From NCBI GenBank assembly GCA_003562775.1, contig PWTU01000297.1:1-52826 (forward strand): 52,826 nt of DNA, given 5' to 3'. How positions within the stretch are numbered: the first letter of the stretch is position 1; the number at the start of each line of letters is the position of its first letter. This document shows positions 4,408 to 32,320 of the stretch, in pieces. The stretch comes from Ignavibacteriales bacterium. GTDB taxonomy: Bacteria; Bacteroidota; Ignavibacteria; T3Sed10-11. Below the pieces are notes generated by a model. The model had not been told where the DNA came from and ran no database searches. It saw nothing but the letters and a program-made list of their open reading frames with translations. A program made the position numbers and the translations under genes.

Positions 4408-4638
4408 TTATTTTCGTAAAATATATTTTGCTGCTTTTACGACAGACTCTTTTCGAACCCTGGCTGCATGAGTGTTTTGCTGTTGTATTTGTTCATACAA
4501 CTCCGTACGGTAAATTTTCACATCCTTCGGAGCTTCTATTCCTAATTTGATCTGGCCGTGTTCAATAGATACCACTTTGACAATTATATTGTCTCCAATG
4601 GTAATACTTTCTCCGGGTTTTCGCGTTAAAATTAGCAT
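4408..4638 (-). CDS. csrA: carbon storage regulator / translational regulator CsrA
   Basis: CsrA is a small RNA-binding dimer that represses translation by covering GGA motifs near ribosome binding sites. The 76-aa protein begins [12 protein letters not shown] and contains [13 protein letters not shown] and YRTELYEQI, the classic CsrA sequence. It lies 3 bp after fliW, its known protein antagonist. The pair typically couples flagellin level to flagellin translation. The flagellin gene itself is not in the window. Confidence 0.97.
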
Positions 4639-4641
4639 ATT

Positions 4642-5058
4642 TTACTCGTGTACAAATTGTTGCGATGAAGGAATAAGAGGATACCGCATTGAAAGTGATT
4701 CATCCTCTACAATTATTTGTTCCCCCGTTTGTGTATTATTGTCAATAACAATCGGGCTCCGCAAGTTTACCGTCGAGTCCTCAACGTTCTCCCGCAGCGT
4801 TGCGATGAGAAGAATTGTCACATTGTCTCCCCGTTCGATTTTCTCAACATAAAACGGAAGCAGTTTCGACGGCTCCAAAAGCGGAAAGCTCACTGCTTCG
4901 TCATCAACGGAAACCAACCAGTGGAAAGGTTCGGATTCCTCATCGGATACCAGAATAAACTTTTTGCAGTATTCAAATCCGATTATTCCCTGAGGAAAAT
5001 GCAGAATATGTTTTTCCTCGAATTCAAGCTCTCCGAATTGTTGATTAGTAAACTTCAT
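4642..5058 (-). CDS. fliW: flagellar assembly factor FliW
   Basis: FliW binds CsrA and flagellin competitively, so it releases flagellin mRNA from repression when flagellin is exported. The 138-aa length is typical. Family motifs are FPQGIIGFEYCKKF near residue 22 and PFHWLVSVDD near residue 43. It is followed almost immediately by csrA and preceded by flgL, the common order flgK-flgL-fliW-csrA. Confidence 0.95.
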   Translation of the reverse strand: MKFTNQQFGELEFEEKHILHFPQGIIGFEYCKKFILVSDEESEPFHWLVSVDDEAVSFPLLEPSKLLPFYVEKIERGDNVTILLIATLRENVEDSTVNLRSPIVIDNNTQTGEQIIVEDESLSMRYPLIPSSQQFVHE

Positions 5059-26578: not shown

Positions 26579-27871
26579 CTACCTCTTCAGATTTACTACC
26601 TCATTCAGTATTTCATCGCTCACCGTGATCACTCTCGCACCCGATTGGAATCCCCGCTGTGCGATTATCATACGGGTGAATTCTTCGGTTAAGTCGATAT
26701 TCGATTGCTCGAGTGCTCTTGCAATAATCTGTGAGTTGGATTGCGACTCATCGCCGGGTGAAATTATCGAGGGTGCACCTGAATTACCGGAGATATCGTA
26801 CAAATTATTCCCCGTTCTTATCAACCCGCCGGGATTATTAAATTCAGCAAGCATTATCTGTCCCAGAGTCATAATCGTGCCGTTGGAAAATGTTCCCTGT
26901 ATACGACCGCTCAGGTCGATATTCACATCGGTTAAGATGCCGGAGCTATAACCATCCTGTTCCCGGGGAGAGACGTTCGAAGCACCTTCACTCTGAGTCA
27001 TACCGGCGAATACTCCGGATTGACCGAGATTTATGTCAATTTGTTGATTTTGATCTGCACCATTTCCCGGGTCCCAATTGTTTAATGCCAATACTACGTC
27101 AGCTCCCGCTGGGATCGCCACCCCATTAACCGCTTCTAGTGTTCCATCATCACCAAATTCAACGGTATCACCAACTCCTCCTCCTCCGACTGTTACTCCA
27201 GCAATTTCAGCTTCCCAATTCCATGTATTATTCCCGGTTTTTTCAAATGTTACCGTCAAGGTATGTCTGTTGCCGAGCGAATCAAATATAGTTACTGAGG
27301 AGTTGATAGTTTCACCTACATCTGCAGCCGCATTCAGATTCCCGGCTAATTTCACCAATTCAGTTGCATTAGCCGGAGCTTTTCTATCAAGGGCAATCCG
27401 TATGTCCTCGAGAGCAGTGCCTTCAGGAATATTGCCGTTTGCATCTGCCAACTTACCTTGCAATATCGAGCCGCTGCCAGGATGAACAAGCATACCATTT
27501 GAATCCAGTGTAAATGCCCCGTTTCTTGTATATAATAAGTGCCCCTCTTTTTTAACAATAAACAACCCGTCTCCCTGGATGGCCAGATCGGTCGACTGTC
27601 CGGTTGTTTCTATATTCCCCTGCGAGAACAAGGTATCGATAGAACTTGCCGACATACCAAGCCCAACCTGCATTGGATTTACACCGCCGGTGCCGCCGTA
27701 TGGGAGCGTCGCATTGCGAAGCATCTGGGAAAACGATTCGCTGAAGGAAATACGACTCCCCTTATATCCCACGGTGTTTATATTTGCGATGTTGTTTCCG
27801 ATTACGTCCATCATCAACTGATGGTTACGCAAACCGGTAACACCCGATGAAAGAGATCGAATGAATGACAT
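26579..27871 (-). CDS. flgE: flagellar hook protein FlgE
   Basis: FlgE is the hook subunit. The 430-aa protein has the rod/hook N-terminus MSFIRSLSSGVTGLRNHQLMMDVIGNNIANINTVGYK, a middle domain with the FlgE D2-type stretch (about 150-330), and the C-terminus LTEEFTRMIIAQRGFQSGARVI. AAAAGGAGGG lies 4-5 nt before the ATG. Its leader carries a structured RNA motif shared only with fliK. Confidence 0.96.
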   Translation of the reverse strand: MSFIRSLSSGVTGLRNHQLMMDVIGNNIANINTVGYKGSRISFSESFSQMLRNATLPYGGTGGVNPMQVGLGMSASSIDTLFSQGNIETTGQSTDLAIQGDGLFIVKKEGHLLYTRNGAFTLDSNGMLVHPGSGSILQGKLADANGNIPEGTALEDIRIALDRKAPANATELVKLAGNLNAAADVGETINSSVTIFDSLGNRHTLTVTFEKTGNNTWNWEAEIAGVTVGGGGVGDTVEFGDDGTLEAVNGVAIPAGADVVLALNNWDPGNGADQNQQIDINLGQSGVFAGMTQSEGASNVSPREQDGYSSGILTDVNIDLSGRIQGTFSNGTIMTLGQIMLAEFNNPGGLIRTGNNLYDISGNSGAPSIISPGDESQSNSQIIARALEQSNIDLTEEFTRMIIAQRGFQSGARVITVSDEILNEVVNLKR

Positions 27872-27875
27872 AATA

Positions 27876-27885
27876 CCCTCCTTTT
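27876..27885 (-). promoter_or_regulatory. Shine-Dalgarno of flgE, complementary to its own leader
   Basis: AAAAGGAGGG on the minus strand lies just before the flgE ATG. Its GGAGGG core is a perfect complement of CCCTCC at 27937-27932, which overlaps the 3' arm of the leader motif helix P1. Pairing of the two would hide the ribosome site. Confidence 0.65.
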
Positions 27886-27903: not shown

Positions 27904-27990
27904 GATCGAGCTTCATTCGTTCGGCTCGACCGGAGGGCTTCCGTTTCAGGTTTTTACTAATAATTATACCTGAATGAACGGGCCAGCCCC
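27904..27990 (-). promoter_or_regulatory. structured RNA motif in flgE leader (copy 1)
   Basis: Minus strand, 5' to 3'. GGGGCT (27990-27985) pairs with AGCCC (27939-27935) as P1. Inside P1, GGC is followed by a stem (CCGTT/AACGG, then TCAGGT/ACCTGA) and a single A. After a 3-nt linker, an 8-bp stem GGTCGAGC/GCTCGATC encloses a 12-nt loop that begins CGAACGA. The motif starts 9 nt after the previous gene and ends 33 nt before the flgE ATG. The fliK leader repeats the same layout. Confidence 0.7.
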
Positions 27991-27998
27991 TGTGTTTA

Positions 27999-28397
27999 TT
28001 ATTGTTTTTTATCTACTATTACTGCACTATCAATATTGGTAAAAACATTTTCATTCAGTTGTTCACCGCCTATTGCCGTTACCACTGTTTTATTTTTTAT
28101 ATTCACGATAAATGCAAGGTCTCGCAAAAGTATGAGCGAATCCCGCGCACCTTTTGTCTCTGCTTTTTCGACGGCGCTTCTTAGTTGTACCTTCTCCGTT
28201 TCACTTAATTTGATGCTTCGCTCGTCAAGGCGTTGCTGTGCATGTTTGGAGAACTTAATCTGCTCCAGTTCCTTGCGAAATACCGCTTCAAAAGAACGGT
28301 CGTGAGGCAGCTTTACGGAGGTTCGCTCCTTTAACGAGTCAACCCCGTGCACCGGTACAAACGGTATCTTTACTCCATTGACAATGTTTTCAGCCAT
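27999..28397 (-). CDS. flagellar operon protein (TIGR02530 type)
   Basis: This 132-aa protein contains KFSKHAQQRLDERSIKLSE and KGARDSLILLRDLAFIVNIKNKTVVTAI, which match the conserved flagellar operon protein family TIGR02530. Members lie between flgD and flgE in many non-enteric bacteria, exactly as here. The function is unknown. It starts 3 bp after flgD ends. Confidence 0.9.
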   Translation of the reverse strand: MAENIVNGVKIPFVPVHGVDSLKERTSVKLPHDRSFEAVFRKELEQIKFSKHAQQRLDERSIKLSETEKVQLRSAVEKAETKGARDSLILLRDLAFIVNIKNKTVVTAIGGEQLNENVFTNIDSAVIVDKKQ

Positions 28398-29083: not shown

Positions 29084-32000
29084 CTATAGGATTAAATCGA
29101 TTGTATTGTACTCAAAAAATCTTTGCGTCCGTTTTGCTGTTTCAGGTTCGTTTTCCTCTCTTTTTCTTCCCTGATATCTTGAATGCCAGCCGGGTTGTTC
29201 ACCTCTTTCCTCTGCCTGATTCGATTGGCCCCCCGTTAAAATATCAAAGCGCTGCACTTCTATTCCGCGCGCAATAAGCGCTTCCCGTAATTGCGGGAGC
29301 TGTCCCTCAATCATCGCTTTAACAGCTGCATTAGTGACATCGACCTTCGCGGTCATTTTTCCGTTTTCCATCCTCATTTTAATAAAAAGTTCGCCCAGAT
29401 ATTCGGGCTTTAACCGGAACCGGATTTCCGATATATCATTCTGCATTCGCAGGGATACTGCTTTTGCAATATCCTCGATTGCCTGCTTTGGAAATTCGGT
29501 AAATGATGTCGTTTGTCCGGTCCCCTGCTTCGCCGGCGTTCCGCTCATCGTCGTCGTTGTTATATTTTGATGCGACGCCTCGGCTAATTTAAACTGAAAT
29601 TCCTTTGAATTTCCTTCCTGCTTTGTGAGATAATTAGTGTTCGGAGCTAAATCCGGCTGCATATTTCTTCCATCACCGGTGTGGCGCCCTTGTCCTTCGT
29701 TGTTCATATCGGACCGGGCAGACCGGAGAGGTGTTCCATCGATAGTATATGTTCTCCCGGTCATCTCCTGCCGTAAATCGGATCCCTGTCGTTCAATGTT
29801 TGGCTTCGGATTTATATGGTGTGAATTTAAATTGTTGTCGTTTTGCCGTATTGCTTGTTGAGTATCACTGTTCCTGATTTGCGTTGAAAAATTCCGCTCG
29901 GGTATTATGTTTTCCACATGATTTTTTTGAAGGGATACCGGTCTCGTGACGGTCTTCTCACTATCTATGACAGGTTCGAGAGACGGTCTTGCTGCATTCA
30001 CTGCTCCCTTTTCTACCTGAACAGGTTGTTCTCTTGCTATGATCGGATTATTTTCCTGCAATACGCGTATTTTATCGGGACCCGGCTTTTGGCTTGTTAT
30101 GTTTTCCATGCTCCTTGTAATTTGCAAACCTTGTAAATCCCGTGAAAGTGTTTGCAACTTCACATCAACCTGCGTCTTCCCCTGGCCGGAATTTTGATTT
30201 GAACCGGTTGTTGAAAAAGGATTTGCCGGTTCACTTCTTAGGGTTTGCACCATTCCCGGGCGGGTACTTTTTCCGATCGGCGGATGCACATTGTTCACAG
30301 CACGTTCACTGCCTGTTTGATTATTAAATTGTTGTCCGATGGTTCGTATTTCCGTCATTACACCTGTATACCCGTTATTACTCTGCACCCGGCTTGAATT
30401 AACTTCCGGATTTGGGGTTCCTTGCACTCCAAACAAATTCCGGGTGATATTCGGTATCGGTCTGTTCATCCTATTAAAAACTTCATTGCGATGCAACGTT
30501 GAATCGTTTACCGGTACACGGGCAGGTGTATCATTCACCCTTTCATTACCTTGGATGGCTTTTGCAGTAAATATACGCGGTACCTGTTCATTCTTTACCG
30601 ATTGATGTTCAAGTACATTCGATTGATGTAATCCTCGGAAAGCAGGCGCCTGTTCCGCTTGACCGGTTTCTGTCTGTCCGATAACTTGTGTACCTGTTAT
30701 TACTCTGGAATCGTTTGAAGAAATATAAGATTGATTAGTATTCATTTCCCTATTCGGAGTAATTTGTATTCCGAGTAAGTTCCGGGAAAGATTGGCTATT
30801 TGTCTATATACCAGGGCATTATTCTCCCTGTGGTTTAAGAATAAATCGATTGCCGGCATACGAACGGGTGTTTCATGTACACTATTACTGCTGCGGGTCG
30901 TTTTGGCAACCGGTATATACGGTACCGGATTACCCTTTTCGGACGACACTATTCCGCGGCCCGGCTCCTGTACTTTTGGAGGATACATTCCGACGAGATT
31001 CGATGGCGGATTCACCTCAGTATTGAATCTCATCCCAATGGATCGTAATTCTGCGGTTAATCCTGCATTGATTTTATTATTTGTAGATTGGACAATATGA
31101 TTATCCGTGCTTTTATACGAAAGGGTTGATGCGTGCGTATTTACCCGAACATTACTTTCACTCCGGTTCTGTATGAGGTCTGCTACAAGTATACGAGCGG
31201 GAGTATCACTCACTTTTTTATTGCTATCCTTTGTTTTACCAAGCAGCATATCCGGCGCCTGGTCGTTCTTTACCGCCGCCGGCATTACACCGGGTAGTTT
31301 CTGATGTACTTTCGGTGAATGCTCCCCTGCAGGAACCGACGTATGATTAGATTGACTATTTGATGCCTGTACGATAGAATGTTGACTTGCTCCGGAATTC
31401 AATATACGGCCGGGGACTTGACTCATTTTATTATCACTTTGAGCTGTCTGTGAACCTAACGGATTGGTCGCCGGTTCATTTTGTCTATGCTTTAGTCCGG
31501 CATCTAATATTAGATCGGCGGCCAATCTATGGTTTTTACTATCCGTACTCCGACTATCGACTTGTATTCCTTCACCTCTGATCGCAGAATTCTTATCTCC
31601 GACCTCTGACCTCTGACCTCCGATCTCCGACCTCTGAACTCCAACCTCTGACCTCTGCCCTCCGACCTCCGACCTCTGACCTCCGACCTCTGACCTCTGA
31701 CCTCTGACATCTGACATCTGACCTCCGACCTCCGACCTCTGAACTCCGACCTCCGACCTCTGATCTCTGACCTCTGACCTCTGACCTCCGACCTCTGACC
31801 TCTGACCTCCGACCTCTAACCTTTGACCTTCAACCCCCGACTTTTGTTCTCCACTCTCCGCACGATTACTCATTTGTTCTTTCAGAGTCCCACCATCCCA
31901 TATCATACCATTATTATAAAACATAGAACTACGCGGTGACACAACGCCTATGTGTGATATCTGAGACGCATTATTTTCTCCTTCACTGATTTCGACTCCC

Positions 32001-32161
32001 TCCGGACGCACCAGATCAGTTTTGCCGGCAGCTTTCAGGAGACTTAACAAATTGTTGAAAAATGAACCTGATCGCCCGGCATCTGCTCCAATACCAACCT
32101 GTCTGGATGAAATCGTTCCACTTTGTATATTTTCAATTGCTGCAATAATGCGATGCATCAT
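29084..32161 (-). CDS. fliK: flagellar hook-length control protein FliK (very long, repeat-rich)
   Basis: FliK measures hook length and triggers the FlhB switch. From the ATG at 32161 it has about 1025 aa, more than twice the enteric protein (about 405). The C-terminal Flg_hook domain (about the last 140 residues) has FRLKPEYLGELFIKMRMENGKMTAKVDV and LPQLREALIARGIEVQRFDILTGG. Residues about 106-187 come from a heptanucleotide array (QRSEVGG-type repeats). A low-complexity middle follows, with three similar blocks about 110 residues apart (DTPARILVADL, ETPVRMPAIDL, DTPARVPVND). AAAGGA lies 8 nt before this ATG. The longer reading begins with TTG and overlaps the leader. Confidence 0.9.
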   Translation of the reverse strand: MMHRIIAAIENIQSGTISSRQVGIGADAGRSGSFFNNLLSLLKAAGKTDLVRPEGVEISEGENNASQISHIGVVSPRSSMFYNNGMIWDGGTLKEQMSNRAESGEQKSGVEGQRLEVGGQRSEVGGQRSEVRDQRSEVGVQRSEVGGQMSDVRGQRSEVGGQRSEVGGQRSEVGVQRSEIGGQRSEVGDKNSAIRGEGIQVDSRSTDSKNHRLAADLILDAGLKHRQNEPATNPLGSQTAQSDNKMSQVPGRILNSGASQHSIVQASNSQSNHTSVPAGEHSPKVHQKLPGVMPAAVKNDQAPDMLLGKTKDSNKKVSDTPARILVADLIQNRSESNVRVNTHASTLSYKSTDNHIVQSTNNKINAGLTAELRSIGMRFNTEVNPPSNLVGMYPPKVQEPGRGIVSSEKGNPVPYIPVAKTTRSSNSVHETPVRMPAIDLFLNHRENNALVYRQIANLSRNLLGIQITPNREMNTNQSYISSNDSRVITGTQVIGQTETGQAEQAPAFRGLHQSNVLEHQSVKNEQVPRIFTAKAIQGNERVNDTPARVPVNDSTLHRNEVFNRMNRPIPNITRNLFGVQGTPNPEVNSSRVQSNNGYTGVMTEIRTIGQQFNNQTGSERAVNNVHPPIGKSTRPGMVQTLRSEPANPFSTTGSNQNSGQGKTQVDVKLQTLSRDLQGLQITRSMENITSQKPGPDKIRVLQENNPIIAREQPVQVEKGAVNAARPSLEPVIDSEKTVTRPVSLQKNHVENIIPERNFSTQIRNSDTQQAIRQNDNNLNSHHINPKPNIERQGSDLRQEMTGRTYTIDGTPLRSARSDMNNEGQGRHTGDGRNMQPDLAPNTNYLTKQEGNSKEFQFKLAEASHQNITTTTMSGTPAKQGTGQTTSFTEFPKQAIEDIAKAVSLRMQNDISEIRFRLKPEYLGELFIKMRMENGKMTAKVDVTNAAVKAMIEGQLPQLREALIARGIEVQRFDILTGGQSNQAEERGEQPGWHSRYQGRKREENEPETAKRTQRFFEYNTIDLIL
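30500..31230 (-). repeat. imperfect ~330-bp tandem repeats within fliK
   Basis: Three related protein blocks occur at about 112-residue spacing: KVSDTPARILVADL, SVHETPVRMPAIDL and RVNDTPARVPVND. They have similar flanks such as VKNDQAP/VKNEQVP and ELRSIGMRFN/EIRTIGQQFN. They mark an old internal duplication that lengthened the FliK ruler. Confidence 0.6.
31601..31845 (-). repeat. (GACCTCY)n heptanucleotide tandem repeat inside fliK
   Basis: Counting from 31601 on the plus strand gives 31 consecutive 7-bp units close to GACCTCT or GACCTCC up to 31817. Four decayed units extend to 31845. Because 7 is not a multiple of 3, gain or loss of one unit changes the reading frame of fliK. The array itself stays open in all three frames and always encodes the same QRSEVGG-like cycle. 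An alternative minus-strand frame leaves the array and reaches a stop at 31510. Confidence 0.92.
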
Positions 32162-32175: not shown

Positions 32176-32238
32176 GTCCAGAATTCAATCGTCCAATGTG
32201 ACGTTGCTTTATTTTAATAATACATCTGATGAAAGGAC

Positions 32239-32306
32239 GGTAAGCGTCTGTCGTTCAGCTTACCAAAGCGGGCTTCCTCTGAATGTTTTCGGAGAGGGCC
32301 AGCCCC
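32239..32306 (-). promoter_or_regulatory. structured RNA motif in fliK leader (copy 2)
   Basis: Minus strand, 5' to 3'. GGGGCT (32306-32301) pairs with AGCCC (32274-32270) as P1. Inside it are GGC, a stem CCTCT/AGAGG, and one A. After a 5-nt linker, a 7-bp stem GGTAAGC/GCTTACC encloses a 12-nt loop beginning TGAACGA. The conserved parts are identical to the flgE copy, while the stems differ in sequence but keep pairing. It starts 15 nt after the motE-like gene and ends 77 nt before the fliK ATG. Confidence 0.7.
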
Positions 32307-32320
32307 ATCATTATTCCGTT

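Follow-up and report, generated by a model that had tools for sequence, protein, structure and literature searches.

A covarying RNA element in the leaders of flagellar hook-stage genes and its association with protein family TIGR02530

Introduction

In flagellar assembly, timing and amount of the hook protein are mostly explained by transcription and the export switch. A case is known in which a small protein encoded near the flagellar genes acts on a flagellar structural gene at the RNA level: flagellin mRNA is controlled by CsrA and FliW (PMC4894983). The element described here would share these general traits with the CsrA/FliW leaders but differs from them in architecture and target: there the GGA lies in an apical loop, whereas here an internal loop and a 12-nt GA-repeat loop are found, and the genes concerned are hook and rod genes instead of flagellin, without a CsrA that tracks the RNA. 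Termite-flg, a structured RNA motif likewise named for flagellar genes, is placed before flagellar genes. It is listed in PMC2864571 and has the Rfam accession RF01729, but in contrast to the present element it is reported from the termite hindgut only, and the RF01729 model finds no match to the element, either in the window (the whole analysed stretch of 52,826 nt from an Ignavibacteriales contig) up to E = 10 or in relatives up to E = 1. Autoregulatory leaders of the ribosomal-protein type resemble the locus in that a conserved fold lies within a polycistronic operon and the likely reader, a small basic protein, is encoded adjacent to it. Here, however, the candidate reader gene lies upstream, the genes targeted are those of hook, rod and ruler, and no ribosomal protein is involved.

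A search with Rfam 15 matched nothing in the window except a tRNA; the element reaches no family's gathering cut-off and is unmatched up to E = 10. In 12 and in 8 loci of relatives, no family matches the element either. The main texts of bacterial RNA surveys from 2010, 2019, 2021 and 2024 contain no hook-gene motif beyond the name Termite-flg. The RNA family is thus apparently undescribed; the literature compared lay mostly outside subscription journals, and a prior description is possible.

Results and Discussion

Two copies of the element in the window

The flagellar genes follow the order FliI, FliJ, a MotE-like protein, fliK, flgD, TIGR02530, flgE and fliL on the minus strand, and a profile search also identifies flgC, flgD, flgF and flgG in the window. 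The genes and RNA features concerned are:

4480..4638, minus strand: CsrA (coordinates of the profile match), disfavoured as reader
26579..27871, minus strand: flgE, hook protein, target of one copy (Pfam FlgE_D2, LlgE_F_G_D1, Flg_bb_rod)
27876..27881, minus strand: flgE Shine-Dalgarno sequence GGAGGG, complementary to CCCTCC at 27937-27932 (P1 3' strand and linker)
27904..27991, minus strand: flgE leader copy, model match (R1, 59.3 bits; R3, 49.3 bits, E = 4.8e-8)
27999..28397, minus strand: TIGR02530 (flg_new) gene, candidate reader, immediately preceding the flgE copy (NCBIfam TIGR02530, E = 6e-32; co-occurrence)
29084..32161, minus strand: fliK, hook-length control protein, target of the other copy (Pfam Flg_hook, E = 1.3e-19)
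32238..32307, minus strand: fliK leader copy, model match (R1, 77.8 bits; R3, 55.2 bits, E = 3.5e-9)
32301..32305, minus strand: P1 5' strand GGGCT of the fliK copy, partner AGCCC at 32274-32270 (fold; P1 covariation in alignment A7)
32298..32300, minus strand: internal loop GGC of the fliK copy (consensus GGA), facing a single A at 32275
32276..32297, minus strand: P2 hairpin CCTCT...AGAGG of the fliK copy, loop variable (sequence and fold)
32239..32264, minus strand: P3 hairpin GGTAAGC-TGAACGACAGAC-GCTTACC of the fliK copy, 12-nt loop (sequence, fold, 98% P3 pairing in 101 sequences)

The likely start of fliK is the ATG at 32161, within a reading frame that opens at a TTG at 32188. An internal array at 31597-31829 comprises 33 heptamer (11 21-mer) repeats, which encode FliK repeats of the GGQRSEV type. 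The genes for CsrA and FliW are adjacent (4480-5058, minus strand) within the flagellar cluster of this Bacteroidota-related genome.

The fliK copy, read on the minus strand from 32306 to 32239, has the sequence GGGGCT-GGC-CCTCT..AGAGG-A-AGCCC-GCTTT-GGTAAGC-TGAACGACAGAC-GCTTACC, and the flgE copy (27990-27904, minus strand) the sequence GGGGCT-GGC-CCGTT..AACGG-A-AGCCC-TCC-GGTCGAGC-CGAACGAATGAA-GCTCGATC, in which the final base of the TCC linker region may also belong to P3. An earlier sequence-only reading had described in the fliK leader a GGGGCT-GGC-stem-A-AGCCC arrangement followed by a stem with a 12-nt loop; the sequence is as claimed and the fold agrees. Its proposal that the two copies match apart from compensating stem changes is likewise borne out, since P2 and P3 differ between the copies through paired changes, with P1 and the single-stranded parts unchanged. 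Taken alone, both leaders fold as a two-hairpin element (z-scores of −1.9 and −3.7), and none of 200 shuffles of the flgE leader is equally stable. A GATG/CATC helix that closes the fliK copy in the minimum-energy fold was rejected as part of the element, because it is missing from the fliK leader of a same-genus genome (G015).

A pattern search of the 4.9-Mb assembly returned only the fliK and flgE leader sites, with no hit in the reversed control, and covariance model R1 found the same two sites only. With model R3, run unfiltered over the whole window, the two copies reach 55.2 and 49.3 bits (values somewhat flattered by training on 101 sequences that include both copies), and the next best match reaches 6.9 bits.

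Architecture and covariation of the family

Across the family, the consensus consists of P1 (5 bp), the internal-loop strand GGA, a P2 hairpin opening with CC..GG, a single A or G, the P1 3' strand, a short linker, and P3 closed by the loop nGANYGANNGAn. Within the internal loop GG is invariant (for most rows GG was part of the search pattern) and the third base is A in 80 of 101 sequences. Alignment A3 is 94% paired, double changes occur in 16 of 19 pairs, and none of 500 shuffles scores as high. Alignment A4, with 101 sequences, yields a covariation score of 0.468 compared with 0.130 when shuffled and at most 0.130 when slid. Here the invariance of P1, P2 and the loops partly reflects the search pattern from which rows were derived, whereas P3 was unconstrained by the pattern and is nevertheless 98% paired, with double changes at all seven inner pairs. 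In alignment A7, composed of model-found copies mostly unlike the pattern, the score is 0.685 versus 0.254, and P1 covaries as well (GGGC, GAGGC, GTGGC, CGGC, GTGAT and others). The alignments describe an RNA whose three stems covary and whose internal loop and 12-nt loop are conserved. Frequent G-U pairs and the constant sense orientation favour a function as RNA rather than DNA.

At four TIGR02530 loci (L194, L198, L208, L212), the motif has P1 and P2 but the GANYGANNGA loop is lost in the aligned match; these loop-less motifs are taken as a natural variant.

Distribution and target genes

Of five same-genus genomes, only G015 has FlgE, and here the element is found in both the flgE and the fliK leader, with stems that differ from the window copies. 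The fliK leader of G015 reads GACCGGACCTC..GAGGAAGTC, followed by GGAATTAC-CGATTGACAGAC-GTGATTCC. A covariance model built from four sequences scores both G015 copies and detects the element in a further 13 genomes of the class, each time before flgE. The exact pattern proved too strict, as among 391 genomes of the class it matched the window genome only. An Ignavibacterium contig also has the element. Since G015 has both copies and independent alignments covary strongly, the two window copies go beyond chance.

A degenerate pattern applied to 84,980 GTDB genomes retrieved at least 120 stretches. Among the matches listed, about 21 lie beside unrelated genes, where about 20 are expected by chance (an estimate), and nearly all others lie directly before flgE or its FlgEFG relatives. 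The listed Bacillota carriers are Sporomusa, Paenibacillus, Cohnella, Brevibacillus, Moorella, Syntrophomonas and Clostridium; other listed carriers belong to the Desulfuromonadia (Geobacter), Bdellovibrionales, Calditrichota, Hydrogenedentota, Planctomycetes and Bacteroidota. The element is situated on the sense strand before flgE, flgG and fliK, and one copy precedes a flgK-like gene (L125).

Forty named genomes contain one to three copies each (model, E ≤ 0.1). Every second or third copy retrieved precedes flgE, one of its paralogs or flgG, and one genome (G697) combines a fliK with a flgE copy. In an unbiased sample of one phylum, the readable second copies sit between flgF and flgG. Neither the copies from the 40 named genomes nor the further copies inspected precede a metabolic gene; only rod, hook and ruler genes are found. 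Copies before fliK are known from three genomes of two lineages, and none was found in the scanned fliK-flgE regions of other families of the class. Likewise, 13-kb stretches from the window's class, which include fliK in most genomes, carry the flgE copy only, which indicates that the window's genus acquired its fliK copy as a lineage-specific addition, G697 being a parallel case. As a target, flgE is ancestral and almost universal.

Regarding the suggestion of the sequence-only reading that flgE and fliK share one RNA that other genes of the window lack, the pairing holds in this genome, in G015 and in the unrelated lineage of G697. As a general rule, the view of hook builder and hook ruler as joint targets does not stand, for the usual second target elsewhere is flgG. 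The RNA control it invoked would be a role suggested by conservation and position.

Some carriers deserve individual mention. In Sporomusa malonica (L181:792-849) and S. ovata (L182:810-867), an extra copy precedes a second flgE-like gene, which follows flgD and not TIGR02530. The two loci of G697 (L084, L188), titled Dependentiae, contain flagellar genes with copies before fliK and flgE, and the bin is probably misassigned. A locus titled as a Streptomyces griseus MAG (L122) holds a Bdellovibrionia-like flgE with the motif, and contamination is likely.

Association of the element with TIGR02530

In 90 of 101 loci the gene upstream of the element encodes TIGR02530 and ends a few to about 90 bases before it; the remaining upstream genes are mostly flgF (flgG copies) or MotE-like (fliK copies). 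Conversely, in loci picked by TIGR02530 alone, the RNA is located directly downstream in 30 out of 30. Of 150 genomes sampled from the phylum to which a Brevibacillus belongs, 114 encode TIGR02530 and 112 have the RNA, all of these among the 114; none of the 36 genomes lacking TIGR02530 has the RNA. The two TIGR02530-positive genomes missed by the scan hold a covaried divergent copy (G871) and a degenerate copy (G773). When the sample is restricted to the 88 genomes with a FlgE_D2 match, the scan detects the RNA in 78 of the 79 that encode TIGR02530 and in none of the nine that lack it (Fisher's p = 1.8e-11; owing to relatedness among the 150 genomes, and as the nine may reflect few independent events, this value overstates independence and does not count independent gains and losses). 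In seven of these nine flagellated genomes, the regions upstream of flgE gave no match up to E = 5.

Copies before flgG and fliK lie away from the TIGR02530 gene and yet occur in genomes that have it, which favours a factor acting in trans. In one MAG (G695) with a flgG copy, TIGR02530 is undetected; a flgE copy is missing as well, and the genome may be incomplete. Joint inheritance of a single operon segment could by itself account for the link between the element and TIGR02530. This link to the gene lying between flgD and flgE, which the sequence-only reading could not see, is the strongest clue to mechanism. In an Oscillospiraceae locus (L086:5387-5809), a highly divergent TIGR02530-like protein (HMM E = 4.8e-5) is encoded beside a normal-looking motif.

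The TIGR02530 protein

TIGR02530 is a flagellar family of 130 residues with a basic character (median pI 9.3). In the papers searched, the phrase 'flagellar operon protein' occurs without TIGR02530 or PF12611 being named. His52, Arg56 and Lys82 are invariant and Arg60 nearly so; the family is characterized by an invariant SxHAxxR helix motif, the pair Lys82-Gly83 and a conserved NRT strand. The AlphaFold model is confident in the core (block means above 90 for residues 51–110), which is predicted to comprise two helices, three strands, a helix and a strand. A Foldseek comparison of this predicted fold with the PDB gave no significant match (best E = 0.28); tRNase toxin domains and SmpB are among the weak, non-significant top matches and serve as a lead only. 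Over the SxHAxxRLxxR helix, four of five members show a match to DUF4258 (PF14076; E = 0.008–0.07); this match, however, is below the curated cut-off and the fold comparison is non-significant. Judged from sequence and predicted structure, RNA binding by TIGR02530 is plausible.

Possible mode of action

With a probability of roughly 0.6, the element would be a protein-read cis-acting leader of hook-stage genes, with TIGR02530 as its cognate reader. As a structured mRNA leader, it would act in cis at the RNA level on hook-stage genes within a large polycistronic operon. The small basic TIGR02530 protein may bind to both the internal and the GANYGANNGA loop and alter ribosome access to the start site. 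By stabilizing or masking the fold, TIGR02530 could set translation; in flgE leaders, the P1/P2 strands may alternate between their own fold and a duplex with the Shine-Dalgarno sequence. In this way, the cell might adjust synthesis of hook and distal-rod proteins independently of the other operon products, perhaps according to the stage of export. Somewhat more tentative, and held at a little below even odds, is the proposal that TIGR02530 would be a sequence-specific RNA-binding regulator, which reads the leaders of distal-rod, hook and hook-ruler genes and tunes their translation to the assembly stage.

In the window, the minimum-energy fold of the longer flgE leader uses the CCCTCC/GGAGGG pairing. 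Over 83 leaders, grouped by the first FlgE residues as a rough proxy, the complementarity of each Shine-Dalgarno sequence to its own P1/P2 strands exceeds that to swapped partners in the Bacillota-like (p = 0.0025) and Ignavibacteria-like (p = 0.04) groups and does not in the Geobacter-like group (p = 0.83), and the pairing averages 0.19 in the ensemble. A general switch based on Shine-Dalgarno sequestration has modest support in two groups and none in the third. The spacing between P3 and the start codon ranges from about 12 to over 100 nt and is longer in flgG and fliK leaders (about 77 nt to the likely ATG at 32161 in the fliK leader of the window). Due to this variability, a simple steric block cannot be general.

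Other readers or roles of the leader have to be considered. By analogy to the flagellin mRNAs of Bacillus and Campylobacter, CsrA might read the leader with FliW as antagonist, leaving TIGR02530 a mere neighbour. Both proteins are encoded in the window and the leader has GGA at the P1/P2 junction as well as at the Shine-Dalgarno sequence. However, the conserved GGA is paired or in an internal loop instead of apical, the 5' GGA is GGC in both window copies, and the apical P3 loop reads nGANYGANNGAn in place of the ANGGA that CsrA-type sites display in hairpin loops. Moreover, CsrA was undetected in 22 of the 112 RNA-positive genomes, its association with the RNA among FlgE_D2-positive genomes is non-significant (59/78 versus 6/10, p = 0.28), and five flagellated genomes with CsrA and without TIGR02530 lack the RNA. 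The co-occurrence test thereby disfavours CsrA as a necessary partner, and reading by CsrA appears highly improbable. Even less credible is a targeting tag through which TIGR02530 would guide the mRNAs for exported axial proteins towards the flagellar export gate. FlgE, FlgG and FliK are export substrates of the rod-hook stage, and loose spacing to the start codon would suit such a tag, but the window contains no other copy despite the presence of flgC, flgD, flgF and flgG.

The compact conserved fold with its two conserved loops, together with the possible alternative Shine-Dalgarno pairing in part of the leaders, would also be compatible with a riboswitch, in which the RNA senses a putative small signal and the Shine-Dalgarno sequence alternates between free and paired, TIGR02530 having another hook function. 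Such a switch is unlikely, as the copies read from the 40 named genomes and the further copies inspected all precede genes for the flagellar rod, hook or ruler, none of the riboswitch families in Rfam matches, and the tight tie to one protein family would be unexpected. Alternatively, the element could act in mRNA processing or stability, protecting or cleaving the transcript of the operon upstream of flgE and so raising hook protein output, TIGR02530 being perhaps part of this or unrelated. The cell needs many more copies of FlgE than of the neighbouring proteins, and the element sits between co-oriented operon genes, at or just past the upstream stop codon. FliK, on the other hand, is needed in few copies and its gene is preceded by a copy too, and the internal and apical loops are conserved far beyond the needs of a stabilizing stem, which makes this role quite unlikely. 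Should the reading of the leader by TIGR02530 be correct, it would add a new control layer and a widespread post-transcriptional checkpoint to flagellar assembly, assign a function to the orphan family TIGR02530 and establish a new Rfam RNA family.
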